Below, piece after piece: positions 11,616-30,921 of a stretch of 64,000 nucleotides of DNA. The stretch spans positions 3,286,001 to 3,350,000 of the forward strand of contig NZ_CP047349.1 of the NCBI RefSeq assembly GCF_011045835.1, in the 5' to 3' direction. Source of the stretch: Proteus terrae subsp. cibarius. Lineage in GTDB: Bacteria > Pseudomonadota > Gammaproteobacteria > Enterobacterales > Enterobacteriaceae. The notes beneath the pieces were generated by a model. The model made no database searches. It was not told the DNA's origin and saw only the letters and a list, made by a program, of their open reading frames with translations. Within the stretch, counting starts at the first letter, position 1. Every line of letters starts with the position of its first letter. Made by a program: the position numbers and the translations under genes.

Positions 11616-11663
11616 TCATGCTCCGCAAAATAACCGTTTGCAATCCGCTTAATTTCAAATGGA

Positions 11664-13805
11664 TTAATGCTTAGCGTGAGCGGTAAACAGAACCGTTTCC
11701 CCCTCATCAAACTGGCATTGGTCACTGGCCGAGATCCCCCGAAGCAATTGCCCGGCTGGAATGCCATGTGCATTGGCGACTTGGCGTAAGGTTTGAATCG
11801 TGACGCGAATACCATCGGCACTATGATCCACGTACGGGTAATCGCCATCGGTCAGTAAGATGGGCAAATCTTTCACAAAATTAACCATCTGTTGCCGCTG
11901 CGCGTGTTTGGGGTCTGTACTTGAGTTCGCATTGGGCCCAATCGGCTTTTGCTTACGCTCCGCTCTTGTGGCGGGCTCTTTTGCTTGGGTATTAGTTGTC
12001 TTAGTTCGACTCGGACGCTGTAAAGCCTCTTCATTCTGAATTGCTGCCGCCGGTTCTGCGTCTTGTTTGGGAAGGTCTATCAGTGCAGTTAGCCCTTTAG
12101 AAATCGATACTTTCAACAGCAACCCTTGCTCCTGAACTCCATCATTTGTAGTCACAGTTCTGGCTTTACGCGTCGGGTTTGCCGGATCTAGTTCAAGCCA
12201 ATCTAATCGACTGAGTTCAGCAAGCAGTTTTCGGGGAGCACACCAATGTCTTACGGCATCGGGATAGCGGATCAGTATCTGTTCATCAACCATAACCAAC
12301 GCACTACTGGCCTCTGGGAGCCATGCCAAAGATTCAGGCAGATTCAATGCTTCTGCATCGTGCTGGTTTACGTTATTTGAGATAGCGCCATCATATGAGT
12401 TGTTAGGCTTTTCACATCCATCACCTGGAGCATTTTCAGTTGCCTGAAGGTGATTAACATCACTGGCAAGACGAAGTTCATCATCTTGGTCGGACGATTT
12501 TGACGATGGCGACTCAGCCGAATTGCTTTGTTCGATTGATGATGACGCTTCAGGCAAGTCTGAATGCTCACTGGAGCGACTCAGTGGCTCTGCTTGTGTT
12601 TGCTGTGTTGGTTCCCACTCTGATTTGCTGAACAGTTTCACGCTACTTGGTACATTCGAGCTGAACAATAAATCGGCCTCAGATATATGCAGCATGGGTA
12701 GCCAGATTGGCTTGCCGTCTTTGATCAGCACTTCAGGGGCAAGGCTTTCATATCGTTCATTTGAGGCGGATTTTTTGGCCAATCCTCGCTCAATGAGGAT
12801 GTCCGCAAGGGTATCGGGATCTCTTGGAATGCCAGGTATCTTGTCTTTGGCCAACAGTTCAATGATGTCCTTAGCAGCGCTTTTCCAAACCAGGTAAAGA
12901 TGGGTTGATTGATTTGATTTTCGTACCCAGACTCTGGCGTCTCGCTGATTGACCAGCCACTGGGAACTGGCAAGTAATCGCCTCATGGCATTAAGTAGAT
13001 AGCGTTCGACTGGGAGACCAAGGGCATTGTCGTCAACGGAAATTCGTTGAGCTTTGAGGTCTCGCTGTACACTGGTTTGGTCAGCGTCAATGACCAGTTT
13101 AGACAGGACATGCTCTGGATCGGTATTGCCAATTGCTTCCAGCATGGCTTGCAAAATTTCAGGGCCCGGCTGGGTTAACCATGCGAGCAACTCAGGCGTC
13201 ATCACCCGGTTTAACACCAGAATTGAAAATTGCTCGTGCCGTTTGCACCGTCCGTCGCGCCAGCGAATGAAATAGCGTTCAATGCGGTTATTAGTGGCCC
13301 ACTGGGATAAGGTTTCTAAAAATGGGTTCCACTGATAGCGTCCATCTTCGTCTGTGATGGACAAGTCTGAAACAGGTTTACCAATATCATGGAACAAACC
13401 GCCAAGAGCCGCAGCAACACGCCACCTTGGTTCCAGCTCTTTTTTTTCAACAGGTGTGCCACTGGCAACAAAGATGATCCCTTCAGCTGCTTGTGCCGCC
13501 CAGAAAGCAACTTCCAACGAATGACGTAATAAACCACCCGCACCACTGTGATGATGATGCTCAGATGCTGGCAGCAAGTGGACATAAGCCGCCAGATGAT
13601 CAATGCAGGGCTGAATCAGCCTTTGAAACTCACGCTGATTAAAGCCAAGTATCTGGCGCAGTTTGGCAATTAGCTCGTCTTGTGTGGACTGCAAATCCTC
13701 GGGTGACGCAGCTGGCAACCCCTTCAGAAATGGCGGATAGCGTGGAATGTCTGTAGAAATTAAATCTACCTTTTTCTCAACATGCTTATCGAACAGCTTG
13801 AACAT
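11664..13805 (-). CDS. traI: TraI, MobH-family relaxase
   Basis: 713 aa from the ATG at 13805 (a TTG four codons upstream is less likely). HHHH at about residues 83-86, RHS at 94-96 and HDIGKP at 139-144 are the histidine/HD-type metal motifs of MobH relaxases, which nick oriT and lead DNA transfer. A low-complexity Ser/Pro/Gln linker (about 400-480) separates a C-terminal TraI_2_C-like domain. The start codon directly abuts a 15-bp hairpin that probably ends the upstream operon, and no Shine-Dalgarno is visible. Confidence 0.9.
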   Translation of the reverse strand: MFKLFDKHVEKKVDLISTDIPRYPPFLKGLPAASPEDLQSTQDELIAKLRQILGFNQREFQRLIQPCIDHLAAYVHLLPASEHHHHSGAGGLLRHSLEVAFWAAQAAEGIIFVASGTPVEKKELEPRWRVAAALGGLFHDIGKPVSDLSITDEDGRYQWNPFLETLSQWATNNRIERYFIRWRDGRCKRHEQFSILVLNRVMTPELLAWLTQPGPEILQAMLEAIGNTDPEHVLSKLVIDADQTSVQRDLKAQRISVDDNALGLPVERYLLNAMRRLLASSQWLVNQRDARVWVRKSNQSTHLYLVWKSAAKDIIELLAKDKIPGIPRDPDTLADILIERGLAKKSASNERYESLAPEVLIKDGKPIWLPMLHISEADLLFSSNVPSSVKLFSKSEWEPTQQTQAEPLSRSSEHSDLPEASSSIEQSNSAESPSSKSSDQDDELRLASDVNHLQATENAPGDGCEKPNNSYDGAISNNVNQHDAEALNLPESLAWLPEASSALVMVDEQILIRYPDAVRHWCAPRKLLAELSRLDWLELDPANPTRKARTVTTNDGVQEQGLLLKVSISKGLTALIDLPKQDAEPAAAIQNEEALQRPSRTKTTNTQAKEPATRAERKQKPIGPNANSSTDPKHAQRQQMVNFVKDLPILLTDGDYPYVDHSADGIRVTIQTLRQVANAHGIPAGQLLRGISASDQCQFDEGETVLFTAHAKH

Positions 13806-13842
13806 AAGAAAGCCCAAATAAAAACATTATTTGGGCTTTCTT
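13806..13842 (-). terminator. 15-bp hairpin between the HS5 operon and traI
   Basis: AAGAAAGCCCAAATA (13806-13820) and its exact complement (13828-13842) with a 7-nt loop. On the minus strand it follows the Res gene by 65 nt and immediately precedes the traI ATG. It has a U-rich descending arm but no U-tract outside, because traI begins there. Confidence 0.65.
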
Positions 13843-13906
13843 ACTGAGCGGCTATTCAGATAGGTTATAAAAATTTCTAACTATCGCCACTATCACGCCA
13901 ATTTAG

Positions 13907-16780
13907 TCACTCTTTGTACTCAAATTCACTCAAAAGGCCATCAACAGTTCTTGATAATGTAATAGCATCATGAGGTAACAAAACGTAATGCCAAGGTTTT
14001 CCGCCAACTTTAGCTGCGTTTTCATTCGCATAACTACACCACCTTGTTGCAGCTTTTGCTTTAGCAATTACATCAACATCTTCCAACTCTCTCGCTTTCT
14101 TTGGCTCCATTAACAGGAAAAGTGTTTCTGTTTCAACAACAAAATCTGGCTCATAGTTTTGGCCACTTCGGTATTCTATGCGAAACTGTCCTGGGCTTGG
14201 TTTCATCCATCTAACAACTGTTCGATCTTGCTCTAGCACCTGAGCTAAACGAAGCTCTCCATCTACTGAATCAAATTTCTGATATGGGTAACAACAGCGG
14301 TCAAAACCAGTGAAAAGCATCTGCCTTACTTTGTTCTTTTGCCCTGGTGGTATTGGTGCACGGAAGTCCCTAGGTTCCTCATCATTAGCAAAGTTGAAAG
14401 TAGTAGGTTTTAACACATCAAAACCTTGAGTCACACTACCAACATAGTCAGTTGGCGTTGTCCACATGTGCTGTTTTATTTGCGACCAAATAAAATCCGC
14501 TAAAATACGGCCTGCCGACTTAAGCACTCCCTCAGCATCAACATCGCTCAAATAGCTTTTTAGGTGCGCAACCATTTGACCAGATAGCTTATAAAGCATT
14601 CCTGCATGCTCATCGTAATCAATCTCGTCGTGATCCATGAGGTAAAATACCAAATAGTTTTCAAGCCGTGCTTCTGAAACAGCACTTTTCTCCCAGTTAA
14701 TTGAACTTATTTGACTGGTCTCCAGATTGCTTATGATGATTTCATTAGACTGTGGTTTAAGAGAAATACGTTCCAAACCTGAAAGATCAAAGTCATTAAA
14801 ACCATAGTTAACATCACGAGTAGGAAGCACCACGATTTTGGGAATGTCTATGGTATATTCTGCAATTTTATGTGTAACGGTTGAAACAATTTCATCTACA
14901 GTAGCGGCATCAAATAATTCGACTTGCTCTTTTTCTTGTGCAACAGAGTGGTTATACCCTTCAGTCACCCTGTTTGATCCCTCAGCATTCATAACAAATA
15001 ATTCTTTCGCGACTTGATGAACACGCTGAGTAATGTGTTTTTTAACGTGCTCCGCTGTCAGTTGCTTACTGCTGTCGAGATTTTTTGCTTCTTGCTGAAC
15101 TATGGCAACAGTAAGTTCAGCAATCTTCTTCTGCGTTGGGCTATATACTTTGCTTGTTGCATTATCGCTTGAATCAGAGTTATCAATTTGTTTCGAACTT
15201 CCTACTTCATAGCTCGCTCGCCCATCCCCTATTGAACTGTTCTCAATGTAAATAGGCTTATTGCCTAAAGCGTAATCCACCATTGAAGGTACGAAAATCT
15301 GCTTTGGTTTTTTTTCTGGAATATCATCTTCATCGCTGGAACCTATATAAAGAGTCTTTTTGATGATGGACTCTTTGTCGTTCGCCTGATCGATAATCTC
15401 TTGGAATCGGTCGTGCGCAATAATCGTCAACCGATCAACAGCCTCTACATTAGTTCTCTTACCGTAAGGTAAACGAAGCCCTCGACCTATGGTTTGCTCG
15501 GTTAAAATTTCAGATGCAGAAGCGCGAAGAGGCACAATAGTATAGAGATTGGTGACATCCCATCCTTCTTTTAGCTTGTTAACATGAATCACTATTTCAG
15601 TATCTTTATCATGCTCAACTGCAAGTAATCTCTGAGTCGTCTCCTCTGACTCCTCACCAGTTTGATTGGAGTGAACGGTGATGACTTTCCCTTTATAAGC
15701 ACCTTCAAAGAAAGAATCATCTTCAATTTTTTTCTTCAATACTTCTGCATGTAACGTATCCTGTGCCACTACAAGCATGAATGGCTTAACTAGCTTAACT
15801 CCTGCATTGTTTGCATAACTAGCCAACTCTGTTTTCACATACTCGTGATGGTGAATGCCATCTTCTAATTTAATTTCCTCCAAGCGTTCTAGAGAGTAAT
15901 CACTAGGTTTAAATTCCTTGCGTGTTGCAACAGCTGGTGTTTTGACATAACCATCATTCAAAGCACTTGCTAATGGATAATGATAAATAATATTTGTAAA
16001 CTCTTTCGGTTTTGAGCCAACAGTTTTGGGCGTTGCAGTAAGCTCAATACCTAATACAGGCTTCAGATCATTTAATGCTTTTGCACCAGCAGAAGCATAG
16101 TATCTGTGTGCCTCATCCATAATAACGACAAGATCAGGCAAATCAGCAAGATAGTTGAAATACGAATCACCGATGTACTCTTGCAATCGCCGCATTTTTG
16201 GATCATTAGATTTGTTAGCGCCCACTTTATTGTCTTTCGCGTTTATTTTCGAAACGTTGAAAATATTAATATGTGGCGCTTCTTCGCCTGCAAATAAATC
16301 ACCTGTCATTGTCGCAGCAACAGCATAGTCTAATCGCACACCGCGGCCATCTTCATAGTCATCACCAGTGATGATGACAGGTGGTGTTTGAACTAACTCC
16401 GGAATCCCTTGAAAAACATACTTTGGATTCCCCATAAGGAAATCTTTTTTCAGCTTCTCATAAATCGTCAAGTTAGGCGCAAGCACAAAAAAATGTCTAC
16501 TACGGCCAGTCAAATACAACCAAGCGATCATTGCTCCCATCAGACGTGTTTTGCCCACGCCTGTTGCAAGAGCAAAACAGAGTGAAGGGAAGTCACGTTC
16601 AAACATTTTCATTGATGGGTATTGCGGTTTCAATACCTCAATCCAGCGATTCAAATCTGGATCTTTGCTCAATTCCATTTGTTCAAGAACATCACACAAA
16701 ATTTGCAATGATTTTTCTTGTGGATTACGAAGAGAGAGTCGAGCACTAATTTGGTTGGCTACTTTTACATCGTCACTCAT
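13907..16780 (-). CDS. Type III restriction-like Res protein: DEAH helicase with PD-(D/E)xK nuclease
   Basis: 957 aa. Walker A ATGVGKT at 72-78, DEAH box at 222-225, TATPK motif III near 249, helicase C-terminal half with IGRGLRLPYG near 430, then a C-terminal nuclease signature P878-D879 ... E892-P-K894 (PDFVV ... EPK). This matches Res subunits of type III restriction enzymes, which translocate or switch on ATP and cut beside the site. It begins 3 nt after methyltransferase B, so the Mod and Res genes form one transcription unit. Last gene of the HS5 operon. Confidence 0.88.
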   Translation of the reverse strand: MSDDVKVANQISARLSLRNPQEKSLQILCDVLEQMELSKDPDLNRWIEVLKPQYPSMKMFERDFPSLCFALATGVGKTRLMGAMIAWLYLTGRSRHFFVLAPNLTIYEKLKKDFLMGNPKYVFQGIPELVQTPPVIITGDDYEDGRGVRLDYAVAATMTGDLFAGEEAPHINIFNVSKINAKDNKVGANKSNDPKMRRLQEYIGDSYFNYLADLPDLVVIMDEAHRYYASAGAKALNDLKPVLGIELTATPKTVGSKPKEFTNIIYHYPLASALNDGYVKTPAVATRKEFKPSDYSLERLEEIKLEDGIHHHEYVKTELASYANNAGVKLVKPFMLVVAQDTLHAEVLKKKIEDDSFFEGAYKGKVITVHSNQTGEESEETTQRLLAVEHDKDTEIVIHVNKLKEGWDVTNLYTIVPLRASASEILTEQTIGRGLRLPYGKRTNVEAVDRLTIIAHDRFQEIIDQANDKESIIKKTLYIGSSDEDDIPEKKPKQIFVPSMVDYALGNKPIYIENSSIGDGRASYEVGSSKQIDNSDSSDNATSKVYSPTQKKIAELTVAIVQQEAKNLDSSKQLTAEHVKKHITQRVHQVAKELFVMNAEGSNRVTEGYNHSVAQEKEQVELFDAATVDEIVSTVTHKIAEYTIDIPKIVVLPTRDVNYGFNDFDLSGLERISLKPQSNEIIISNLETSQISSINWEKSAVSEARLENYLVFYLMDHDEIDYDEHAGMLYKLSGQMVAHLKSYLSDVDAEGVLKSAGRILADFIWSQIKQHMWTTPTDYVGSVTQGFDVLKPTTFNFANDEEPRDFRAPIPPGQKNKVRQMLFTGFDRCCYPYQKFDSVDGELRLAQVLEQDRTVVRWMKPSPGQFRIEYRSGQNYEPDFVVETETLFLLMEPKKARELEDVDVIAKAKAATRWCSYANENAAKVGGKPWHYVLLPHDAITLSRTVDGLLSEFEYKE

Positions 16781-16783
16781 TTA

Positions 16784-18427
16784 TTACGCTTCCTCTTCAT
16801 CGTCGTAAAGTTCAACATCATCTTCAGCTAACACATTCAAAGTAAAGCTGTAATCATCATTATCCCATTCACACTTATTCAAGATTGATTGAGGGATTTT
16901 CTTAATCGTTAAGTTCGGGAAGTCAGCGCCTTCGCTCATAAAGGCTTTACAGCAAATTAGAAGGGTGCGATCTTCACCAACATCCTCGCTAATACGCTTG
17001 AGCTGGTCATATGCCAACGAGCCTGTGGTTACATAGATGAAATCAGTCTCGGTGCTATAACCGTGATTCCAGAATTGAGTTTCACTAGGAGCGTAAGTAA
17101 AGCCCATGTGTTTACACATGGCAGCTGATAGCATCTCAGCGTTATACTCTTTGTTGATGATCCAATTACCCCATTCATCTTTTTGCAGAAGAGATGGAGC
17201 AAGACGGAGATAACGGAAACCGCCGCCACCTTGCCAGTTAACTGCTTTAGATATGCCGCCTTGGTCTTCACCATCAATCACCTTTTTAAGGCGAGGAACG
17301 ATATGAGTTTCACAGTGGTCACCCAACTCAACCATGATCCAACGACGGCCCATTTTGTGTGCTACTGCGCCAGTTGTACCGGAGCCAGCAAAAGAATCGA
17401 GGACAATATCTCCTGGTTTAGTACTTAAACGAATAACTCTCTCTAATAATCGTTCAGGTTTTGGAGTTGAAAAAAGCTTATCTAAATCTGGTAAAAGAGT
17501 ATTATTTTCAGCCTTTGCTTCTTGATTGTGGCCAACATCTTCAGAAAGCCATAATGTGGATGGAACTACACCTTCTTTATTATCTTTAATAAATCTTTTT
17601 AAGCGCGGTTGATTATTTCCATCTTTCCCCCACCAAATAAGATTTTGACTTTCAAAGTCTTTTATTGTTTCAGGGGAATATGCCCAACAACGGCCCTTGG
17701 GGGGATAAACCTCTTGTCCATTAGGTCCAACTATAGGATACAAGCCTGTACTTTTCCCAGTAATTGCATATTGTTTCCCCCTCTGTCCAGAAGTTAAACT
17801 TACATGTAATGGACTTGATGCCCATGGGCCTCTAGGATCATCATCTTGGTTTTTGTAATCTTGCGTGTTGCGTTCAGATCTTGGAATTCTTCCCATTGAG
17901 AAAAAATCAATATTTTTGGCGTAAGCCAAAACCATATCAGTATTTGACGAAAACAATATCGCATTATTATGAATGCTTGTAGTTTTCTGCCAAGTAACTT
18001 GACCTATAAAGTTAGAACGACCAAAAATCTCATCACAAAGTACTTTTAAATAATGCCCCTCAGCATCATCAATTGTAATCCAAATACTCCCTTCTATAGA
18101 TAACAAAGACTGTAAAATTAACAACCTATCACGGATAAGGGATAACCACATCGAGTGCTCTAAACCATCATCATAGTGAGAAAAAGCACTCCCCGTGTTA
18201 TAAGGAGGATCAATAAAAATGCATTTAATTTTTCCAAAATAATCTTGTTCTAATGCTTTTAAGGCCAAAAGATTATCACCATGAATAAGAAGGTTATCAT
18301 TAAAAATCCCTTCTTTTTTCTCACCTTGAAAAGACAATTCACTATCTTCAAGAAAAATCCGTGGCTCCAAACGAGGCCGTTTTTGTTTACCAATCCAAGT
18401 AAGTTCTAGTTTTTTTTTATTGGTCAT
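16784..18427 (-). CDS. Type III-like DNA methyltransferase B
   Basis: 547 aa from the ATG at 18427, which overlaps the end of methyltransferase A by 11 nt. DPPYNTG (73-79, motif IV) precedes FAGSGTTG (motif I, SAM binding), the beta-class order of type III Mod proteins and N6-adenine or N4-cytosine enzymes. The last ~200 residues are almost identical to methyltransferase A, but the central ~200 residues, where target recognition is expected, differ strongly. Probable role: protective modification and specificity for the adjoining Res. A second specificity is inference. Confidence 0.88.
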   Translation of the reverse strand: MTNKKKLELTWIGKQKRPRLEPRIFLEDSELSFQGEKKEGIFNDNLLIHGDNLLALKALEQDYFGKIKCIFIDPPYNTGSAFSHYDDGLEHSMWLSLIRDRLLILQSLLSIEGSIWITIDDAEGHYLKVLCDEIFGRSNFIGQVTWQKTTSIHNNAILFSSNTDMVLAYAKNIDFFSMGRIPRSERNTQDYKNQDDDPRGPWASSPLHVSLTSGQRGKQYAITGKSTGLYPIVGPNGQEVYPPKGRCWAYSPETIKDFESQNLIWWGKDGNNQPRLKRFIKDNKEGVVPSTLWLSEDVGHNQEAKAENNTLLPDLDKLFSTPKPERLLERVIRLSTKPGDIVLDSFAGSGTTGAVAHKMGRRWIMVELGDHCETHIVPRLKKVIDGEDQGGISKAVNWQGGGGFRYLRLAPSLLQKDEWGNWIINKEYNAEMLSAAMCKHMGFTYAPSETQFWNHGYSTETDFIYVTTGSLAYDQLKRISEDVGEDRTLLICCKAFMSEGADFPNLTIKKIPQSILNKCEWDNDDYSFTLNVLAEDDVELYDDEEEA

Positions 18428-20051
18428 CTTCGTCATCCAGTTCGTATTCTTCAGGCTCTGCGAGTACATTTAAAGTAAAACTGTAATCGTCGTTGTCCCA
18501 CTCGCATTTATTCAAGATTGATTGTGGGATTTTCTTAATCGTTAAGTTCGGGAACTCCGCTCCTTCACTCATAAATGCTTTGCAGCAAATCAGGAGCGTT
18601 CGATCTTCACCAACGTCTTCGCTAATACGCTTGAGCTGGTCATACGCTAACGAACCTGTGGTAACATAGATGAAATCAGTCTCGGTGCTGTAACCGTGAT
18701 TCCAGAATTGAGTTTCACTAGGAGCGTAAGTAAAGCCCATGTGTTTACACATGGCAGCTGATAGCATTTCTGCATTGTATTCTTTATTGATAACCCAGTT
18801 ACCCCATTCATCTTTTTGCAGAAGAGATGGAGCAAGACGTAAATAACGGAAACCACCACCACCTTGCCAGTTAACTGCTTTAGATATGCCACCTTGGTCT
18901 TCACCATCAATGACTTTCTTGAGGCGAGGAACGATGTGCGTGTCGCAATGCTCACCCAACTCAACCATGATCCAACGACGCCCCATTTTTTGAGCAACTG
19001 CACCTGTAGTGCCTGAACCCGCAAATGAATCTAGAACCAGATCTCCAGGGTTGGTAGCGATGGTTAATATACGCTGAATTAAACGCTCGGGCTTTGGCGT
19101 ATCGAACACGTCTTTACGCCCAAACAACTGAATGATTTCCTTTTTTGCTTCGTCTGTATGGCCTACGTCCTCATGTGGCCACCAATTATGAGGCGTCATA
19201 CCATCACGAACTTCAGATAGAAACAACTTTACAGCAGGTGTAGTATTCGTACCATTAATGCCCCACCAGATGCGCTTTTCTTCTATGTGTTTTCGGTGAG
19301 TTTCTCGATCATACTTCCAAGCTTTTTTCGTATTCTTAATCACTTCACCGGTATTAGGATTTGTAATGTCATAACACAAATTAGGGCGCTTTTCAGGGGT
19401 TGCTTGGTTCAGGTAATCTACTGACTTCCAAGGTCCCCTCGGATCATTATCTGGATTTTTATATCTAGCAACAGAATCCTCCGTACGAGGAAGCAAGTTG
19501 TTAACAAATTTATCGGATTTTCTATAAACAAGAATTCTGTCACAGATTGAGGCTATGCCTTTAAAATTGTTACTTACACTATATTTTCGCTGCCAAGTAA
19601 TATCAGTAACAAAGTTTGCTCTTCCAAATATCTCATCACACATAACTTTTAAATAGTGAGACTCATTGTCATCAATTGTGATCCACAACGAACCATCTTC
19701 AGACAAAAGCTGATGGAGTAACACCAATCTATCTCTCATCAATGTAAGCCACATTGAGTGCTCTAATCCATCATCATAATGTGAAAAAGCACTCCCTGTA
19801 TTATAGGGGGGGTCAATTACTATACATTTAACTTTACTTGTGTAATCTTGCTCTAATGCTTTGAGAGCCAATAAGTTATCAGATTTAATCAGTAAATTGC
19901 TAAACTCCTGTTCGCTGTCCTGGCCAATGTCTACTGAAACATTGAAATAAGAGTATTCTTTACTTTCCAAGAAAATGCGAGGCTCGAGTCTTGGCAACTT
20001 GTCCTTACCAATCCAGCTGAGTTCCAACTTGTTATTTTTAATGTTATTCAT
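18417..20051 (-). CDS. Type III-like DNA methyltransferase A
   Basis: 544 aa from the ATG at 20051; an upstream extension to 20129 has no good ribosome site. DPPYNTG at 80-86, FAGSGTTG at 343-350. Beta-class order as in type III Mod. N-terminal core and C-terminal ~200 residues are shared with methyltransferase B; residues about 150-320 are unrelated or very diverged. About 46 nt separate it from the upstream 255-aa gene. Most likely an adenine methyltransferase, by analogy only. Confidence 0.88.
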   Translation of the reverse strand: MNNIKNNKLELSWIGKDKLPRLEPRIFLESKEYSYFNVSVDIGQDSEQEFSNLLIKSDNLLALKALEQDYTSKVKCIVIDPPYNTGSAFSHYDDGLEHSMWLTLMRDRLVLLHQLLSEDGSLWITIDDNESHYLKVMCDEIFGRANFVTDITWQRKYSVSNNFKGIASICDRILVYRKSDKFVNNLLPRTEDSVARYKNPDNDPRGPWKSVDYLNQATPEKRPNLCYDITNPNTGEVIKNTKKAWKYDRETHRKHIEEKRIWWGINGTNTTPAVKLFLSEVRDGMTPHNWWPHEDVGHTDEAKKEIIQLFGRKDVFDTPKPERLIQRILTIATNPGDLVLDSFAGSGTTGAVAQKMGRRWIMVELGEHCDTHIVPRLKKVIDGEDQGGISKAVNWQGGGGFRYLRLAPSLLQKDEWGNWVINKEYNAEMLSAAMCKHMGFTYAPSETQFWNHGYSTETDFIYVTTGSLAYDQLKRISEDVGEDRTLLICCKAFMSEGAEFPNLTIKKIPQSILNKCEWDNDDYSFTLNVLAEPEEYELDDEDDQ

Positions 20052-20097
20052 CTCACAAACCTTAATAGTGGATCGTTTAATAACCATCCATTGCAAA

Positions 20098-20865
20098 TTA
20101 TTTATCCAGCATCTCACGAGCAATAGCATTCAAAAAGTCTTGGGTTTGAAGTCCATCTTTTATTAACACAACTCTAAAATTCGTCTTACCCTGCTTCAAA
20201 GTCTCACCCTTTTCATCCCAAGCTTTACTGCTAGACATTATTTCAGTAGTAGCTCCACCTAAAATATATAGATCTACCTCTCCATCTTCAAAAAGCCTTA
20301 AGCCATCGGAACGATCGTAAGTTTTCATTGGTGGCATATTATTTTGATGATCTTTTTGGTAGTCTCGGTAATTCTTCAAGTGAAACATTGGACGTATATA
20401 GAACTCCTTTTCAGACTCTGTTTTGCCTTTAGACTGAGACTGGTATGGTCCCAATATATGCCAATCGTTAATAACCCCAACTAGGCTCTTTTGCACACAT
20501 AAGGAAGAGCGAACCTCCACTATAGACTCTGCACCACCAGTTTTTATTTTAATGTCGTATAAATCATGCTCTTGGAAATCGTCTGTTCGAACTTGGTCAT
20601 AACTTTCTACTGTTATTGGCAAATTATGCTTTTCAAAGAACTTTCTCAATAAGTAGCTACATGAAATATCAGCCAAAGCACCCAGAAAGTTTTGGCTGAA
20701 TCTTTCTTGTTGGCTTCTTGGAGACCCACTTGGATCTCCATGAGCCACTTTAGGGGCTTTTCTGAATGCTCGATGCTTTGCTAGCTCAATTAATTCCGGT
20801 TCATCTAAAACTTCCACTTTGTAGAAGTTCCAACCGTTTATTGCGGGCATAAGAGTGAATTTCAT
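20098..20865 (-). CDS. Unrecognised operon protein, possible PD-(D/E)xK-like domain
   Basis: 255 aa from the ATG at 20865, which is 2 nt after the SNF2 stop, so it is translated in coupled fashion. No signal or membrane segment. The stretch HDLYDIKIKT followed by ESIVEVRSS resembles a nuclease-fold D ... ExR/K core, but lysine is replaced by arginine and I cannot confirm the fold. The position between the SNF2 ATPase and the methyltransferases makes it a core part of the system, perhaps a nuclease or DNA-binding subunit. Confidence 0.7.
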   Translation of the reverse strand: MKFTLMPAINGWNFYKVEVLDEPELIELAKHRAFRKAPKVAHGDPSGSPRSQQERFSQNFLGALADISCSYLLRKFFEKHNLPITVESYDQVRTDDFQEHDLYDIKIKTGGAESIVEVRSSLCVQKSLVGVINDWHILGPYQSQSKGKTESEKEFYIRPMFHLKNYRDYQKDHQNNMPPMKTYDRSDGLRLFEDGEVDLYILGGATTEIMSSSKAWDEKGETLKQGKTNFRVVLIKDGLQTQDFLNAIAREMLDK

Positions 20866-20867
20866 GA

Positions 20868-23687
20868 TCAATTCACGCTCCATGTTGCTTCAAAAATGAG
20901 CTCTAAACGAGTATCCAGTTTCAACCTTGCCTCAATTTCTTCTAGCAAGCGGTCTTCCTCTTGCTCAATTAACTTTTTCTCTTCATGGTAATTGAGCATC
21001 ACTTGATCCCTTTCCCGTTCAAGAGACTTTAATGCTCGCTTTGCCGCCATTTTCTCTTGCAGTGTACCAAGTTGCCGAGATGCTTTTCTTGCCTGCTTTA
21101 TTTCCAGGTCTAACTGCTTAATACGGATATCTAAGGCAATTCTCTTATCTTCCGCCCAGCGTTCTAACTTCTCAACTTCTTCCGCATAATACCGTTCATT
21201 GTCTTGCTCAACTTCACTGATGAACACCTGAAGCTGGAGACTGGTATCACCATCCAGTCCAACATAAGAATCAAGTAGTTGAGGTTTACCTTGAAGCGAA
21301 ATTGGCAATTGCAGGATGCGTTCTACAGTTTCAGGATGAACAATCTCACCAGTATCGGTAATCGCTGCGAGAATTAGTCGCTCACGTTTTTCTTCACTAG
21401 AACCAATACTCACTTTTGTTACGCGCAACATACCCTTTTTGGAAACTAAATTCCTTACATCAGCCCAGTGGGTGTCTTCAGGCGTATATACGAAAGCCAA
21501 ATGGGTGCTTTCAAGTTTATCAACCTTGTAACGCTCTAATAACTCCAGGCCCAAGCCCTCTGATACACGAAACAGATTGTGATCATGTTGCACTGCATGA
21601 TGCCAATCCAAAGAGTAGAACGAGTCTCCCACGGAAAAGCCATGTTCTGTCACGGTAAAAGAGCTATCTGACGCAAACACCATTCTCGCCAGTAACAGTA
21701 ATTTCTTCTGATAATGGGATAACTGAGCCGTCACTCTATTACGGCGAGTATTCAAACGGTCAACAACATCTGCGTCAAAGTTTTCCAACAGAGAACGCCG
21801 CGTCTCATTCACCTTTACTTCGAGCTGTTCTTTTAACTGCTCTTGTAACTGGTTAAATTCGTGCTCAATTTGGTCATCACTTCTACAGCTCTGATAAATG
21901 TCATGGATTCTCCGTTCAATATCCACACCTGACTCGATTGAACCTAGAATCTCATCTGACGCACCAAAAACCCCTTCAAACAACTGAAACTTTTGGCTCA
22001 GTAACTCAAAGACACGCTCGTCGGCCCGATTACCCTTGTTGATAAAGTTAACCACTACAACATCATGCTTTTGGCCATAGCGGTGGATACGCCCAATACG
22101 CTGTTCAACACGTTGTGGGTTCCATGGCAAGTCGTAATTCACGAGTAGCGAACAAAATTGTAAGTTAATACCTTCTGCGCCAGCCTCGGTACAGATCATC
22201 AAAGTAGCTTCATCTTTGAATTTATCGACCAAAGCCGCCTTCATATCCGCAGTTTTGGAGCCTGATATCCTTGTTGAACCGTGGTGTTTTTCTAGCCACT
22301 CTTTGTAAATAGCTTTCGAGGCAGCATCATTGTTGCTTCCATTGAGCAAGACAATCTGCCCACTATATCCATTGCTTGTGAGCAGCTCAGCTAACCAGGT
22401 TTGAGTTCTGACGGATTCAGTGAAAACAACCGCTTTCCTACTTCCGCCTAACTCACTCGTCTTATCAAATGCTCTTGTCAACACACGAAGTAAAGCCTCA
22501 GCTTTGGCGTTACCGCTGATTTTTGCTGCGAGCTCTTTAAATGAACGTAGCAACTCAATTTCAGCACTTAATGCTACTGGATCGATATCTTCGTCTTCTA
22601 TTGCATCTTCATCTTGATAATCATTCAAGCAGTCAAGATCTTGCAAAGCCTCGATGAGAGGTAGCTTTTGCTCTAACCGATTGATCATGGTTTCAAGTGT
22701 ACCAAGTACAGCATAGGAGGATGACGCAAGTATTTTGCGGATAACAAGTGTGACTAAATGCCTTGCACCTGATTTGATAGAGAGAAGATCCTCTCTCTGC
22801 AAGTACTCAGATACTTCTGTATAAAGCTGTTCTTCTTCTGCTGAGGGACGAAAGTCTTCAGTCATTGAATAACGACGAGTGAAACTAATGCCGCCTTCTT
22901 CTTGCACTTGTCGACGTAGCGTACGATTGCAAACTTTGCTCAATCTTGCACGTAATAGGGCTAGCTCAATTTCATCCAAATTTTGTCGGCCATATCGGGC
23001 TTTAAATGAATTCAAATCACCAAAAAAGTGAGGATCTAGAATAGAAACCAACCCATAAAGCTCTAATATACTGTTTTGCAAAGGGGTAGCAGAGAGCATT
23101 ACTTTTTTTCGTCCTTGCAATGCAAGCTCTAATTTTTTCGCGGTTTTTGCACCATCAGTTTTGTAGATATTTCGAAGTTTATGCGCTTCATCTAGGACGA
23201 CAAGATCCCAAGAAACCCGTGCTAACTCAACTTCTTTCCTAGCTGCAAATTCATAGGAGCAGATACATATTGCTGGCTTTCCTGTGCTAACTTCCACTTC
23301 AAAAGGATTAGCGATACCACTTTTTATCGCGGCGTTAAAAGTTGTTGCTTCAAGAATTGCAGACGGTAAGGAAAATTTTTCTTCTAATTCTTGGCTCCAC
23401 TGCTTTCTTAAAGTAGCAGGTACAATCAATAAGAGCTTTCGTTTACGTTCTGCCCATTTCTGAGCTAGAACCAGACTAGCTTCTATCGTTTTACCTAATC
23501 CAACCTCGTCGGCTAAGATAACTCCACTAGACAGCGGTGATGATAAGGCAAACAGTGCAGCCTCAACCTGATGTGGGTTCATATCAACTTTGGAATTAGC
23601 AATAGTTTGAGTCATTGACTCTTCTGCTTTTCCAGAGAGCGTTAGAGTGTGAGCTAACCAAGCTTTTTGGTGCGATGAATAATTCAA
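20868..23687 (-). CDS. SNF2-family ATPase with long C-terminal coiled coil
   Basis: 939 aa. DEVGLGKT Walker A at 60-67, DEAH box (LDEAHKL) near 170, TPLQN motif, and C-terminal helicase lobe with GAEGINLQ and QRIGRIHRYGQ motifs: a Swi2/Snf2-like translocase. The last ~170 residues are a charged coiled coil. SNF2 ATPases of this kind occur in DISARM (DrmD), RapA and several uncharacterised restriction-type defence loci. Here it is first after the WYL regulator (18-nt gap). Confidence 0.88.
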   Translation of the reverse strand: MNYSSHQKAWLAHTLTLSGKAEESMTQTIANSKVDMNPHQVEAALFALSSPLSSGVILADEVGLGKTIEASLVLAQKWAERKRKLLLIVPATLRKQWSQELEEKFSLPSAILEATTFNAAIKSGIANPFEVEVSTGKPAICICSYEFAARKEVELARVSWDLVVLDEAHKLRNIYKTDGAKTAKKLELALQGRKKVMLSATPLQNSILELYGLVSILDPHFFGDLNSFKARYGRQNLDEIELALLRARLSKVCNRTLRRQVQEEGGISFTRRYSMTEDFRPSAEEEQLYTEVSEYLQREDLLSIKSGARHLVTLVIRKILASSSYAVLGTLETMINRLEQKLPLIEALQDLDCLNDYQDEDAIEDEDIDPVALSAEIELLRSFKELAAKISGNAKAEALLRVLTRAFDKTSELGGSRKAVVFTESVRTQTWLAELLTSNGYSGQIVLLNGSNNDAASKAIYKEWLEKHHGSTRISGSKTADMKAALVDKFKDEATLMICTEAGAEGINLQFCSLLVNYDLPWNPQRVEQRIGRIHRYGQKHDVVVVNFINKGNRADERVFELLSQKFQLFEGVFGASDEILGSIESGVDIERRIHDIYQSCRSDDQIEHEFNQLQEQLKEQLEVKVNETRRSLLENFDADVVDRLNTRRNRVTAQLSHYQKKLLLLARMVFASDSSFTVTEHGFSVGDSFYSLDWHHAVQHDHNLFRVSEGLGLELLERYKVDKLESTHLAFVYTPEDTHWADVRNLVSKKGMLRVTKVSIGSSEEKRERLILAAITDTGEIVHPETVERILQLPISLQGKPQLLDSYVGLDGDTSLQLQVFISEVEQDNERYYAEEVEKLERWAEDKRIALDIRIKQLDLEIKQARKASRQLGTLQEKMAAKRALKSLERERDQVMLNYHEEKKLIEQEEDRLLEEIEARLKLDTRLELIFEATWSVN

Positions 23688-23705
23688 TTTAGCACTTCCA
23701 TTTTT

Positions 23706-24638
23706 TTAATTCTGACTAGTTCTATAGCCGGGAAGTAATGCATCATTTTTTACTCCATACAGCGCCTGCCCATTCCTTAACCAAAGTTGATACTCAGGAC
23801 CAATTAATGAGTAATTATTAGAACAATCTACATTCCAAAGACGAAGCAAATACCCAGCGGTTGCGGCTCTAATCTCAACCTTTAGAACGCCACCCGTCAT
23901 ACCATAATCCAGTTCAATCGCTTCGCTGTGCTTAATACGAGGATGCGGCACTAACTCTAGCTCTACAAAGCGATTCCATTGCCGATCTTGGGTTTCGAGC
24001 TCCGTTTCAGACAAATTGGAATCCTCAAGCACGACCGCTGCTTTAATTCGGGTCAGCACAAAGTCACGGAACTCACCATGCTTGCGGTCAAAACCACGAA
24101 CATGCCAACGCAGGCCATTGTCCACCAGCGTATGCGGTACAATTTCACGCGTGGTTTCACCACTCGATAACGACACATAGGTGATACTCAAGGCTTTGCC
24201 TTTGTGTATGGCCTCGGTGACTTTCGCTACTATCGATAAACTCGGCTTGTTAAGGTGATAAGGCGCTTCACAAGCCAGAGGTGGTTTTACCTTTCCAGTG
24301 AAGCCATCGCCGTACCCTTGGCTAATCGTCGCCAGCGTTCTCACAACGTCGTAGTCGAACAAGGGCTCAAAAGCTTCACCGCGCTTATGCAACTTGAGCT
24401 TTTGGTCATATTCAATATTGCCTGGCGCAAGCTCTCGGTACATCGTGAAGTCTTTCGTTGCTTGTGCAGCGGCTATGCTGAAGCGATCGACTAAATCCGC
24501 CCGTACCGCTTCGCCCTTAAACAATAAAGTGAAATCGATGTGGGCAATGCGATCCCTGGTTGCTTGTGGCAACTGCGCTATCTGCGAAAGCCTATCTGAC
24601 TTCGCCACTACCGTTTGTTTCAGACCATCATTTGTCAT
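23706..24638 (-). CDS. WYL-domain transcriptional regulator (BrxR/CapW-like)
   Basis: 310 aa. N-terminal region (about 1-100) looks like a winged helix. The WYL domain follows at about 147-195 (ITYVSLSSGETTREIVPHT and RWHVRGFD), then a C-terminal WCX-like part. Proteins of this shape repress BREX, CBASS and other defence operons and may sense nucleic-acid signals. It is the first gene of the HS5 operon, so autoregulation is likely. Confidence 0.83.
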   Translation of the reverse strand: MTNDGLKQTVVAKSDRLSQIAQLPQATRDRIAHIDFTLLFKGEAVRADLVDRFSIAAAQATKDFTMYRELAPGNIEYDQKLKLHKRGEAFEPLFDYDVVRTLATISQGYGDGFTGKVKPPLACEAPYHLNKPSLSIVAKVTEAIHKGKALSITYVSLSSGETTREIVPHTLVDNGLRWHVRGFDRKHGEFRDFVLTRIKAAVVLEDSNLSETELETQDRQWNRFVELELVPHPRIKHSEAIELDYGMTGGVLKVEIRAATAGYLLRLWNVDCSNNYSLIGPEYQLWLRNGQALYGVKNDALLPGYRTSQN

Positions 24639-24959
24639 GCGTCTTGTTTATCCAATTCAACCAGATTCTTAATACTCTGCTTATAAAGTAAGGACCGTCA
24701 TCGCGTAATCACATTGAATAGTGTCACTCAATGCTGCTCTTAATCCGCAATGACTTAGCAATCTCTACCGGTTGAAGCTGGACAGATGGCCATAAAACAC
24801 TGAATAGGCTTCAACCTAATTAATTTTATTAGGTATCATCCTATCACAAATTATTTTGTAGGGAAGACTAAGCGGCAACTTTTTGATCTGGATTGCAATT
24901 GCCGCTCAGGTATGGGCGTGAAGACCTTGTTTGGTGCCATCGATGATAGTTGCTATCAA
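24639..24959. promoter_or_regulatory. HS5 operon promoter region with inverted repeat
   Basis: No gene. CATTGA (24712-24717) and TCAATG (24728-24733) form an inverted repeat about 75 nt upstream of the WYL start, a candidate operator for it. The remainder is AT-rich with no assigned element. Confidence 0.35.
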
Positions 24960-25259
24960 TCAATGCGCTACCCGAACCAGTGGCACCACGATGTAACTGC
25001 AATGAGATACCCCTTTGTCCGACTCTGTAGACATCAGGGCTCGTTGCTCACTCTCCCGAATGCGCCTGGCGACTTCTGCCTGGGCTGGTAGCAATGGCAG
25101 CATCCCTTCAGCAATCGCGTCCGGTGCAGACTCTTGGCCACAGGACATCAAGTGCTTCCATGGATCTTTAAGAAAGCGCTCGAACGTGATGCCAAATTCA
25201 ATGATGCGGGCAGAGACGAAGATTTCGCCCCAGTATTCAATGTAGGTGTCTTGGTACAT
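24960..25259 (-). CDS. Conserved small ICE protein near HS5, function unknown
   Basis: 99 aa. No domain recognised. By position it may correspond to the conserved gene (s026 in SXT nomenclature) that borders hotspot HS5; this is inference. Central charged stretch (VARRIRESEQRA). GAGGAATCTTTCC precedes the ATG, an acceptable ribosome site. Confidence 0.6.
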   Translation of the reverse strand: MYQDTYIEYWGEIFVSARIIEFGITFERFLKDPWKHLMSCGQESAPDAIAEGMLPLLPAQAEVARRIRESEQRALMSTESDKGVSHCSYIVVPLVRVAH

Positions 25260-25346
25260 GGAAAGATTCCTCTTGTTGGTTAAACCATGAGTTCACTTTC
25301 CATTTTCCAGAGATTCTCAAATATGCAAGGCTTAACTTATAGAGAG

Positions 25347-26252
25347 CTACAAAGCTTTAAATCGATTGCGAGCATCTTTGTAGTCATAGTGGGCATGTTC
25401 TGAGCCACGATGGTACAAATCATCCAGGTAAGTTTGTTCCTGCGGTAACTCGTCTTCGCTGATTTCGCGCCACCAATGCTTGTTGGCACCTTTAACACCG
25501 TCATGCCAGCGGTAACCACGCTCTTTTAAATAGTCCTTTACGTCAAACGGCGCACCAAACGCACGAACTAACACAGTTCGCCTGTCCGCTTCAGACAACA
25601 AGTTTGCAACGGACTCGGGCAACAAATGGAACAACCAGGCCATCGCCAAACAATCGGTTGCAGCTCGGTGTCCTTCATAAAACCAACCTAAGCGAAGCAG
25701 CAGGTACTCAAGCTTTCGACTTTCAAAACCCAGTGCCTTCCAATCTATGCCACTGGCTGAACAGGCCCAAGATAGATGGCCTAATGCAGCAAACCGCTTT
25801 TCAAAGAAAGGACGATCAAACTGCGCATTGTGTGCAACCACCAGCGGATCATCGGATAACCAACTCGCTACCAGTGAATCATCAATGTGCTGGCCTTGCA
25901 CCATATCATCGGTGATACCGGTTAACTCGGTAATCAGCTCGGGGATAGGCTTACCGGGATCTTCATACAAGCTGATCACATCAACAATCGACACAATCCG
26001 CTGAGCAGAGGGGCTGTAAAGCACCTTAACCATACCAAGCTCAATAATGGACTCGTCCTCGGCAGACAGTCCGGTTGTCTCTGTATCGAGCAGCACCATT
26101 GGCTGTTCATCACCAACCATAGGAGAAAGTTCAAGTGGCCAGGACTGCGGCTCACGCGTTAATGGAATACGCTCCAGCAATCTAAAATCTTCTGGTCTTT
26201 CTGGAATATCCGCGAGGCGCTCTAGCGGAAATGGCGCAGGGGCTCTTGTCAT
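25347..26252 (-). CDS. DEDDh-family 3'-5' exonuclease (DnaQ-like)
   Basis: 301 aa. ExoI motif DTETTG at 56-61, ExoII HNAQFDRP near 140, and ExoIII-type HRAATDCLA near 193: the DEDDh catalytic set. The C-terminal ~60 residues (KERGYRWHDG ... KHWWREI) match the small domain often found after such exonucleases on ICEs. Could act in ICE replication or repair. Conserved backbone gene upstream of traI in SXT-type elements. Confidence 0.85.
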   Translation of the reverse strand: MTRAPAPFPLERLADIPERPEDFRLLERIPLTREPQSWPLELSPMVGDEQPMVLLDTETTGLSAEDESIIELGMVKVLYSPSAQRIVSIVDVISLYEDPGKPIPELITELTGITDDMVQGQHIDDSLVASWLSDDPLVVAHNAQFDRPFFEKRFAALGHLSWACSASGIDWKALGFESRKLEYLLLRLGWFYEGHRAATDCLAMAWLFHLLPESVANLLSEADRRTVLVRAFGAPFDVKDYLKERGYRWHDGVKGANKHWWREISEDELPQEQTYLDDLYHRGSEHAHYDYKDARNRFKAL

Positions 26253-26846
26253 TGATGGTTCCTCTTCAATTCTATTGTTCGCTTTGGGTTATTTCACTGT
26301 GCCACAGGTTTCTCTAAATGCACCTTGGATACCTCAGCGTTTTTTTGATCTTTCTACTGGGTGACCCATGTATGAAGGCTTTGGCTAAGCCTTTCAGAAA
26401 GCCTTAGCTAAACCCTTTAGGTAACCCTTACCGATACCCTTTAGGTATGGCTTAGCCAACCCCTTTTCAAACGGTTGAAAAAGGCTTGAACTGAGTTCGA
26501 CTGAGCATTTTAATGATGCTCCTGACTTCGCTTTAAGCCAGTAAATTCAATACGAAGCAGAATTTTACTAACTGTTTTTAAACCCTTTGCAAAGGGTTCA
26601 ACAAGCCTTGTTTGACGGTTACTTGACCCATGCGTTAACCAGTAGCAGTAACAGGATCAGTAACAGAAACAAGAGCAGTAGGCAGAAGCAGTATTGTCCA
26701 AGCCTTGCAGGCTTTGACGAGGGCGAGCAATCCCCACATCAAGCTTTTCAACACAAAAAAGAAATCACCCACGACACAACGTCTTACTCGAACAACTACA
26801 GTTTTACCTACAATTTTACTTGTAGAAATCAGCATAGCATCAGATA
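26253..26846. repeat. Intergenic region with dyad and tandem repeats between exonuclease and rumA
   Basis: No supported gene over ~590 bases. TTGGCTAAGCC (26381-26391) and GGCTTAGCCAA (26449-26459) are perfect inverted repeats, and CCCTTTAGGTA occurs twice (26413 and 26437). They lie in the leader of the minus-strand exonuclease and could be regulatory or replication-related. I cannot assign a function. Confidence 0.45.
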
Positions 26847-26862
26847 CTGTATAAACAAACAG
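26847..26862 (+). promoter_or_regulatory. LexA (SOS) box upstream of rumA
   Basis: CTGT-ATAAACAA-ACAG, a perfect match to CTGT-N8-ACAG, 29 nt before the rumA ATG. This is consistent with SOS induction of the error-prone polymerase genes. Confidence 0.85.
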
Positions 26863-26890
26863 TATTAATTCTATTTTTTCGAGGTTCGTC

Positions 26891-27340
26891 ATGAGTGTCT
26901 CGCTGATAGGCCGTAGCGGCGCACTTGCCTTCATCAAAGCCAAGCGCCTTCGTATTCCATTGTTCATGGAACGTGTTTCTGCTGGTTTTCCCTCACCAGC
27001 GCAGGATTATGTTGAGCAAACGCTCGACCTCAACGAGCTGTGCATCAAGCGACCGGCTGCAACGTTCTTTGTGCGTGTTGAAGGTGATTCAATGATTGAT
27101 GCTGGGATTCACCCAGATGATATTTTGGTGGTTGATCGTTCTGTTCAAGCAGAACACGGTGACATTGTCATCGCTGGCATCCATGGAGAACTCACGGTAA
27201 AGGAGCTTCAACTAAGGCCGTGCGTCAAGCTGATCCCAAGAAACCAGGCGTATGAGCCCATTCATATTCCTGAAGGGGCAGAGTTAGAGATATTTGGTGT
27301 GGTCACCAATGTGGTGCGAAACATGCGCCGTAAGTCGTGA
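26891..27340 (+). CDS. rumA: RumA, UmuD-like SOS mutagenesis protein
   Basis: 149 aa. Self-cleavage site AG at 31-32, catalytic Ser in EGDSM (Ser67) and Lys104 in LTVKEL: the LexA/UmuD serine-lysine protease set. Length is normal for UmuD. It would be cleaved to the active form and pair with RumB in translesion synthesis. The adjacent rumB is interrupted, so only RumA is likely to be functional. Confidence 0.93.
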   Translation: MSVSLIGRSGALAFIKAKRLRIPLFMERVSAGFPSPAQDYVEQTLDLNELCIKRPAATFFVRVEGDSMIDAGIHPDDILVVDRSVQAEHGDIVIAGIHGELTVKELQLRPCVKLIPRNQAYEPIHIPEGAELEIFGVVTNVVRNMRRKS

Positions 27341-27347
27341 CTGTCCC

Positions 27348-27580
27348 ATGCCTGTATTTGCCTTGGTGGACTGCAACAACTTTTACGCCAGTTGTGAGAA
27401 GCTGTTTCGTCCTGATTTAAAAGATACGCCGGTTGTGGTGCTGTCCAACAATGACGGCTGCGTGGTTGCACGCTCGCGTGAAGCTAAGTTACTCGGTATT
27501 AAAATGGGCGTACCCGTCTTTCAGATCAAAGCCGAAATGCAGCGCCATGGCATTTTGGCATTCTCCTCTAACTATGCGCT
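27348..27580 (+). pseudogene. rumB: rumB 5' part (UmuC-like polymerase V subunit), interrupted
   Basis: Starts at the ATG at 27348, 7 nt after the rumA stop. The first 77 codons encode the Y-family polymerase N-terminus (ALVDCNNFYASCEKLF and SNNDGCVVARS with catalytic acids). At 27576-27580 (GCGCT) the frame meets the resistance island and stops at 27617 after foreign sequence. Joined with 41887-42922 it gives exactly 423 codons in frame including stop. Confidence 0.93.
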
Positions 27581-27769
27581 TACAGTTGGGAAATACTTTA
27601 GACATCACATGTTGTAATGTTTCAGGTTGTATAAATTAGACGTCGAGATGAGGGGTGGTTACAATTTTTACTATTGGTTAAGAAATATCTTGAAAAAGTA
27701 GATGTATGAACGCGTAACCCCCTGGGGGAAGGCTTAGCAGTGTGAATAACGGATGATTTAGGTGTTAAT

Positions 27770-29575: not shown

Positions 29576-29639
29576 ATCAGGGCTGTTCCGTATTAAATGT
29601 ACGATATTTACCTAATTTGCCACACTTATAAGTAGTAAC

Positions 29640-30861: not shown

Positions 30862-30921
30862 CTGCACATTCGGGATATTTCTCTATATTCGCGCTTCATC
30901 AGAAAACTGAAGGAACCTCCA

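Follow-up and report, generated by a model that had tools for sequence, protein, structure and literature searches.

Closest described systems and the locus under study

Murray et al. (2021, PMC8259958) described the type III restriction-modification (R-M) systems Eco86II and BspHIV, in which a gene for a helicase-like ATPase is located on the 5' side of mod. According to that paper, over 500 genomes encode such an ATPase in the vicinity of Mod and Res; the ATPase is not required for methylation and gave no detectable peptide in active Eco86II, and the paper assigns no role to it. The present analysis concerns a locus of similar gene order in an SXT/R391-type integrative and conjugative element (ICE) in Proteus terrae subsp. 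cibarius, situated in a stretch of 64,000 nucleotides (contig NZ_CP047349.1, positions 3,286,001 to 3,350,000), which is called the window below. The cargo of ICE hotspot 5 (HS5) in the window is composed of five genes encoding an SNF2-family ATPase, a 255-aa protein (P3), two type III methyltransferases (ModA and ModB) and one restriction subunit (Res). This cargo is probably a dual-specificity type III system, in which two Mods share one Res and P3 is a candidate accessory nuclease.

By description, the window resembles Eco86II and BspHIV in the position of the helicase-like ATPase gene upstream of mod and res, an arrangement that is widespread. Unlike the locus of the window, these systems have one Mod and, in the part of the paper that describes them, are given no slot gene; their methylation is of the m4C kind (PMC8259958). 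The m4C Mods presented there carry DPPY/F too; therefore, the DPPY motif does not tell which base is methylated. A back-up effector embedded in an R-M operon is represented by PrrC in EcoprrI (type IC R-M), as described in the passages of PMC12707154 used here. Unlike the putative function of P3, PrrC is a tRNA nuclease and belongs to a type I system; no homology to P3 is claimed.

Gene organization

All six open reading frames (ORFs) of 13907..24638 are found on the minus strand and are tightly packed, as a first-pass annotation of the sequence had reported:

23706..24638, minus strand: WYL-domain regulator, by position s026 (Pfam WYL 1.2e-14)
20868..23687, minus strand: SNF2-family ATPase, DrmD-like, TTG start (Pfam SNF2-rel_dom 1.5e-37; PADLOC DrmD 2.9e-200)
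20098..20865, minus strand: P3, 255 aa, possible PD-(D/E)xK-like restriction nuclease (no family match in Pfam, PADLOC or NCBIfam)
18417..20051, minus strand: ModA, type III methyltransferase/specificity subunit (MTase_III 3.5e-226; N6_N4_Mtase 3.8e-47)
16784..18427, minus strand: ModB, second type III methyltransferase/specificity subunit (MTase_III 2.6e-238; N6_N4_Mtase 1.8e-45)
13907..16780, minus strand: Res, ATP-dependent type III restriction subunit with a C-terminal PD-ExK motif (REase_III 1393.5 bits; Pfam ResIII 3.6e-19)

The ModA frame (18417-20129) opens at 20129 and the ModB frame (16784-18469) at 18469; judging from the sequence, the likely starts are the ATG codons at 20051 and 18427. 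With these starts ModA and ModB overlap by 11 nt, and the gap of 46 nt between P3 and ModA, given already in the annotation, is confirmed. The remaining gaps are 18 nt (WYL-SNF2), 2 nt (SNF2-P3) and 3 nt (ModB-Res). The motifs noted earlier, DEVGLGKT, DEAH, DPPYNTG (twice) and PD...ExK of Res, are all intact in the translations. Pfam recognizes WYL, SNF2-rel_dom with Helicase_C, N6_N4_Mtase (twice) and ResIII, and no family in P3; taken together, Pfam, PADLOC and NCBIfam name a WYL regulator, an SNF2 ATPase, a type III restriction subunit and a pair of methyltransferases, which PADLOC assigns to type III.

Both subunits of a type III system are present. Each Mod matches PADLOC MTase_III (E-values above) and has DPPY; Res matches REase_III with E=0, has a nuclease motif by reading and is encoded 3 nt from ModB. 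The gene order, with the helicase-like ATPase gene 5' of mod, corresponds to the SNF2-bearing (Eco86II-like) group, and the locus is, as proposed in the annotation, more than a plain Mod-Res pair. A search of the same genome with ModA returned ModA and ModB only.

The SNF2-Mod-Res core

Type III loci built as SNF2-Mod-Res are known and widespread, and the SNF2 protein of the window is likely a type III-associated helicase-like ATPase. Its full-length relatives span many phyla, and a tblastn search of plasmids with SNF2 gave 51 records at E 1e-50. The genome census comprised 80 loci (L014-L093), the best of at least 563 SNF2 relatives; a crude ORF caller was used, Mod was labelled at more than 40 bits, and ORFs were counted as slot ORFs if they had the same strand and a length of 140 aa or more. 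SNF2 is full-length at family level in 59 of the 80 loci, 55 of which have at least 1.5 kb of downstream sequence. Mod is located downstream of SNF2 in 48 of these 55 usable loci, which agrees with the predicted co-occurrence of SNF2 with such Mods; in the others (L015, L020, L046, L052, L063, L068 and L077) a downstream Mod is lacking, and L063 and L068 have Mod upstream. Among the loci with at least 7 kb downstream (n=45), Mod is found in 40 and Mod together with Res in 39. The 21 loci excluded from the count were fragments or low scorers. Five of them have Mod (L053, L080, L081, L083, L090), and none of the five full-length Myxococcota relatives in this set does (L072-L075, L091; a control picked post hoc). 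The census as a whole accords with the gene neighbourhoods described by Murray et al. 2021. Within 20 genomes of the same genus, the SNF2 search returned the protein of the window and one other (L117, genome G1586) at 42% identity.

An ATPase beside Mod-Res was published in 2021 (PMC8259958); therefore, SNF2 alone makes no new compound system, and its earlier listing among the marks of one is not sustained. The nearest relative found is located on the Aeromonas media plasmid pE31A (L006) and has the order WYL-SNF2-slot-Mod-Res (SNF2 71%, Res 69%). It differs from the window in the slot genes, which encode an AAA ATPase and a DUF4276 protein, and in having one Mod, interrupted by an insertion sequence (IS).

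Two Mods and one Res

The middle of a Mod is the target-recognition part. In the alignment of ModA with ModB this middle is divergent and the C-terminal half is common to both:

19127..19598, minus strand: ModA target-recognition region, approximate (divergent middle of the alignment)
17497..17995, minus strand: ModB target-recognition region, approximate (divergent middle of the alignment)
18417..19010, minus strand: ModA C-terminal half common with ModB, minus last residues, presumed Res-docking part (aa identity)
16784..17377, minus strand: ModB C-terminal half common with ModA, minus last residues (aa identity)

Amino acid identity per 30-column block amounts to 90-100% in the C-terminal half (25% in the tail) and to 24-52% in the recognition region. 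The proportion of synonymous differences (pS) is 0.47 in the C-terminal part (bootstrap 0.36-0.58) versus 0.71 in the N-terminal part (0.60-0.84), and these intervals just miss each other. The nonsynonymous proportion (pN) is 0.016 in the C-terminal part, 0.23 in the N-terminal part and 0.47 in the recognition region. Since C-terminal pS is the lower, the C-terminal parts probably share a later ancestor via recombination or conversion, and they have probably been kept since then by strong selection. One Res per Mod dimer is described in the relevant section of PMC8259958, and docking of Res could proceed through the C-terminal half of Mod.

Two full Mods were found in one of the 48 related loci with Mod. 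This locus, from Flavobacterium celericrescens (L029), is also the sole one with a P3 relative. Like the window, it encodes SNF2, two Mods, a P3 relative and one Res, and its Mods independently display conserved ends and different middles. Unlike the window, it has Mod and Res of another subfamily (Mod 27-29%, Res 31% over 83 residues) and the order SNF2-GmrSD-Mod1-260aa-Mod2-P3-Res. Because this is a single locus, the link between the two-Mod form and P3 (window and L029) is suggestive only.

The presence of two Mods could have another explanation, namely that the locus is an ordinary type III system with SNF2. One of the two Mods would then be a redundant, transient allele, either captured as a second allele or duplicated and on its way out, and P3 would be a passenger with no connection to the system. 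The rarity of a second full Mod, the variation of recognition-region alleles among strains and the changeable slot content (see below) would fit this explanation. However, both Mods are full length with intact motifs, the C-terminal pN of 0.016 at a pS of 0.47 argues for long purifying selection on both, and the P3 family is found beside methylases in seven of nine loci, so that we regard a redundant allele as rather unlikely and prefer two Mods serving one Res.

The variable slot between SNF2 and Mod

One to three ORFs are located between SNF2 and Mod in 29 of the 48 loci, and none in 19. When low scorers are included, 31 of 53 genome loci with Mod have a slot ORF, as do five of the eight plasmid loci (L006-L013). 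Clustering of 48 slot ORFs from 61 loci, together with P3 and its Virgibacillus relative, yielded 25 clusters. A Pfam scan of 20 slot ORFs revealed AAA/SMC-like (AAA_21), DUF4276, AIPR, Abi_2, SLFN_AlbA_2, Bro-N, SIR2_2, HerA, GmrSD_N (once with HNH), Fic, protein kinase and sigma factor domains and a weak CENP-H match; two of the 20 matched no family. The slot ORFs include non-effectors: a 418-aa ORF in L012 is an annotated IS256 transposase, a 292-aa ORF in L083 is an SNF2 fragment, and an ORF with sigma-factor domains in L060 is counted as well. Slot gene types such as those listed are known abortive-infection or restriction effectors, and the interval between SNF2 and Mod could be an effector slot, which is occupied by P3 in the window.

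The order SNF2-slot-Mod-Res is shared by four E. coli/Salmonella loci of the composition HTH-SNF2-Abi-Mod-Res (L012, L114, L115, L119; the SNF2 of L115 is 40% identical to that of the window). They differ from the window in the helix-turn-helix (HTH) header (mads1 by RefSeq in L114, L115 and L119), in the single Mod, and in the slot, which contains Abi, plus AIPR in L115, and not P3. Within this set SNF2 is 97.5-99.9% and Res 98.9-99.9% identical. The four loci form two groups of two, between which Mod identity goes down to 69%, with the divergence concentrated in the middle of the protein, and the Abi genes are 67% identical. Only one group has an additional slot gene (AIPR in L115; a 206-aa ORF in L119, 99.5% identical to part of AIPR).

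Exchange of the recognition domain and of the slot within a fixed SNF2/Res frame is seen in these four loci. In L118, from a fifth E. coli strain, the 9 kb after SNF2 contain IS elements and neither Mod nor Res.

The exact six-gene order of the window, which the first-pass annotation proposed to look for elsewhere, is absent from the 8 plasmid loci (L006-L013), the 80 genome loci (L014-L093) and the 4 E. coli loci (L114, L115, L118, L119) examined. The 255-aa gene, viewed there as a part of the compound set, is one occupant of the variable slot and no member of a conserved SNF2-P3-Mod-Res set; what does hold is that its family recurs beside DNA methylases, in bacteria and archaea alike.

The P3 family

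In the first-pass plasmid search with P3, a Virgibacillus protein (P0002) was the sole match (2e-6). A family of nine members was assembled by stepwise searches with relatives and by a profile search. Leave-one-out profiles built from eight members recovered every member at E<=1.3e-21, and P3 of the window at 3.6e-28. The best PHROGs matches have E-values of 0.1 (P3) and 0.044 (Virgibacillus relative), and P3 was not found in phages or viral contigs. The family is rare: it was detected in 1/398 genomes of the same phylum (the genome of the window only), in 1/299 genomes of the phylum of a Neobacillus and in 1/296 genomes of the phylum of Flavobacterium (Flavobacterium itself). With P3 as the sole query, 1/295 genomes of the same order and 5/369 of the same class gave matches.

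Two of the four further matches in the class (L094, L095) are DAHP synthases and were rejected as chance matches, the frames being the metabolic enzyme itself; the similarity covers P3 residues 72-141 at 29-33% identity. L096 matches the same span of the P3 profile as the DAHP synthases, and L097 lies in a frame with stops.

P3 is encoded directly beside a recognized DNA methylase, on the same strand, in seven of the nine members, and these methylases are of three kinds. Type III neighbours are found in the window (P3-ModA-ModB-Res), in Flavobacterium (Mod2-P3-Res), in genome G1044 (L107; cut-off type III Mod (1.7e-57)-P3-Res) and in Methanomethylovorans (L104; helicase-DUF4391-P3-Mod-Res). 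In Thermococcus and M. jannaschii, P3 comes directly after an N-6 methylase of 1.2 kaa (thousand amino acids), with Eco57I/TaqI_C matches in the former and matches to type IIG enzyme-methylase models in the latter. The Campylobacter P3 comes directly after an EcoRI-type methylase. In Virgibacillus, P3 follows an 840-aa protein with motifs read as those of a methylase, and in Lactococcus an AlwI R-M system adjoins P3 without being in line with it. The Mod and Res of G1044 are nearest to those of Methanomethylovorans (42% and 36%), and the Flavobacterium proteins are likewise of that kind; the Mod and Res of the window belong to a different subfamily. P3 thus stands beside two Mod/Res subfamilies and therefore met type III systems at least twice.

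The residues R50, G62, E117, R119, S120, S121, Y141, K146 and E150 are invariant in all nine members. Position 66 is E in eight members and D in the window protein. D104 is present in seven of nine members by alignment, and the two archaeal exceptions show a one-residue shift. An AlphaFold model of P3, made from two sequences, has a pLDDT of 39, with a helix at 49-79 and strands at 105-108 and 115-119. The site looks like PD-(D/E)xK with R in place of K. Because seven of the nine members adjoin a recognized DNA methylase, P3 is regarded as a putative restriction-type nuclease.

Two small neighbouring genes were noted. The 260-aa ORF between the Flavobacterium Mods (L029:16190-16972) has no Pfam match and displays a PD-(D/E)xK-like D...ELK pattern, so that a small possible nuclease comes after each Mod in this locus. 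In the Methanomethylovorans plasmid pMETHO01, a DUF4391 gene (L104:4754-5572; Pfam 4.6e-74) adjoins P3.

Alternatively, two R-M systems could be interleaved, with P3-ModA as a self-contained type II-like pair that has entered the slot of a type III system made of SNF2, ModB and Res. P3 is located right after a methylase, with annotated neighbours that include neither Res nor SNF2, in Thermococcus, M. jannaschii and Campylobacter, and the extra Mod2-P3 pair of Flavobacterium is also found within SNF2-Mod-Res, as expected for such a pair. ModA is, however, no foreign methylase but paralogous to ModB, with which it has the C-terminal half in common, and the Methanomethylovorans P3 goes with the sole Mod of a Mod-Res pair. 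Interleaving is on this evidence a rather unlikely alternative to a dual-specificity system with an accessory P3.

Proposed function

Type III enzymes characteristically modify a single strand of an asymmetric site and cleave between a pair of inverted sites. In the dual-specificity system, ModA and ModB would methylate the native genome at two different asymmetric sites, and incoming or phage DNA without either mark would be cut by the Mod2-Res complex. The common C-terminal half would let either Mod dock on the single Res. P3, placed in an interchangeable accessory slot, would most likely act either as a second, methylation-controlled nuclease, with its target protected by the neighbouring methylase, or as a back-up effector. 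The probable role of SNF2 is to link the restriction complex with the effector in the slot, or to clear or remodel DNA. The regulator s026 would keep expression down, and the presumed outcome is phage defence.

Several points weigh against this proposal. The nuclease fold of P3 is unproven at the model quality given above, a PDB search with P3 by sequence and by profile gave no match, and the usual lysine of ExK is an arginine in all nine members (E117-x-R119). The 840-aa neighbour of the Virgibacillus P3 has no family match in four libraries; therefore, the methylase tally stays at seven of nine plus one by motif reading. The methylase partners in Thermococcus and M. jannaschii may carry a nuclease of their own. 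In Methanomethylovorans P3 occurs with a single Mod, and P3 therefore needs no two Mods. The likeness of the Mod C-terminal parts could come from conversion alone, with no docking. Finally, the role of the SNF2 ATPase may be marginal because Murray et al. 2021 (PMC8259958) found that methylation does not need the ATPase and detected none of its peptides in active Eco86II.

A wider proposal can be put forward tentatively, as a possibility. P3 could found a new family of restriction nucleases that has no fixed methylase class and is plugged into type III, type IIG-like and EcoRI-type systems; the ICE would then carry a layered system with two Mods and one Res, and SNF2-Mod-Res loci in general would be a chassis, with an exchangeable slot for an effector triggered by failed restriction.

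The core is known; what looks new, so far as the literature was searched, is the exchange of slot genes, the family to which P3 belongs and the presence of two Mods. The titles and abstract openings of the matches listed contained nothing about P3, about several mods served by one res or about a slot of changing content in type III loci with SNF2. The varied effector types in the slot by the ATPase suggest a testable role for the latter, as a gate or partner of the back-up effector. Two Mods alike mainly in the C-terminal half offer a natural setting in which to test whether a single Res serves two specificities. If the proposal is true, P3 would be a nuclease family outside the libraries searched here, and mobile elements of the type that carries it pass between marine and enteric bacteria.

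Comparison with DISARM, BREX and MADS

Derivation from DISARM or BREX is highly improbable: SNF2 does match PADLOC DrmD (2.9e-200), BrxHI (7.8e-70) and the DrmA model (3.6e-40) among the best 25 PADLOC matches taken for SNF2 and for each Mod, but it remains under the curated NCBIfam DrmD cut-offs (658.6 bits against 950 for NF038318, DrmD_b; 260.7 against 610 for the second model), the DrmA match is the same SNF2 protein and hence reflects general helicase likeness, and the other cargo consists of P3, two Mods and Res, with no PglZ, BrxC, DrmB or DrmC gene in the insert.

DISARM, set aside also in the annotation, was thus rejected, the five insert genes including no separate DrmA, DrmB or DrmC. 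BREX was rejected as well, the six proteins having no PglZ or BrxC match in Pfam, in NCBIfam or among the PADLOC matches listed. MADS was the third candidate rejected: no NCBIfam MADS model (the library includes MADS2) matched the six proteins at 0.001, and a MAD2-type methyltransferase was not found among them. In the MADS literature, the titles among the matches listed concern mostly plants, and none of them bacterial defence. In the E. coli loci the mads1 label applies to the HTH header only. In L114 (11814-12014) RefSeq gives it to a small HTH gene before SNF2-Mod-Res, the neighbours of which have no MADS labels; this header is perhaps common to different systems.

Hotspot-5 setting and the WYL gene

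HS5 is the interval between s026 and traI, and s026, a COG2378 regulator, belongs together with s073 to the core genes that diverge most (PMC2791158). In the window this interval comprises the following features:

13754..23820, no strand: hotspot-5 insert (cargo) of the SXT/R391-type ICE, between traI/mobH and the s026 3' part, ends approximate
11664..13817, minus strand: traI/mobH relaxase, ICE backbone flank of HS5 (NCBIfam MobH 411.3 bits)

In a BLASTN comparison with the ICE of E. coli WP4-S18-ESBL-08 (L109), the window matched at 10303-13753 and 23821-28267 (95.0% each), with no match between 13753 and 23821 at E 1e-20. R997 (L111) matches with 93.7% identity up to 13755 and with 93.5% from 23818 onwards, and E. 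coli XH1815 (L112) matches at 93.1% on the traI side and 93.4% on the s026 side. The fetched stretches of Shewanella (L110) and Vibrio gigantis (L005) contain no traI side; the former matches from 23746 (95.2%), the latter from 23746 to 24890 (91.8%). The edges are thus placed at 13753-13755 next to traI (L109, L111, L112) and at 23746-23821 in s026 (L005, L109-L112). Since both flanks match other ICE loci and the middle does not, the insert spans approximately 13754-23820, and the hotspot-5 placement of the first-pass annotation, with ICE backbone on both sides, is well founded. The G+C content is 0.385-0.426 in the cargo genes versus 0.49 in traI and s026.

COG2378 is of the WYL kind, and the location and type of the WYL gene mark it as s026, a core gene of the ICE. 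The cargo is therefore composed of five genes and not six; the six-gene HS5 operon described earlier retains its gene content and loses WYL as a cargo member. Copies of the WYL gene with high identity head other operons: in R997 and E. coli XH1815, a type I R-M system along with McrBC genes and genes of the BstXI family, and in L109 a different Mod/DEAD operon, in which the DEAD protein is similar to Res of the window over 250 residues only (23%). The WYL gene of Vibrio gigantis heads a type I R-M system, and in Shewanella L110 no annotated defence operon adjoins it. Defence loci with adjoining WYL regulators are known (PMC9122601, PMC9122589). The Aeromonas WYL (L006) is far more distant, with 45-55% over the whole length.

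DNA identity of the WYL gene to L005, L109, L110 and L111 is 88-99% per block over the first 200 codons. Towards the 3' end (23706-23820), identity to the same four ICE-type copies drops to 53-65%, forming a fading boundary, and the variable zone takes in the last 40-115 nt of the gene. This drop hints that the cargo is swapped by recombination within s026, the incoming cargos possibly recombining inside the regulator gene itself.

Beyond the s026 side, at 28267-41471 of the window, there are stretches that share 99-100% identity with regions of insertion sequences and drug resistance in other ICEs of the SXT type.

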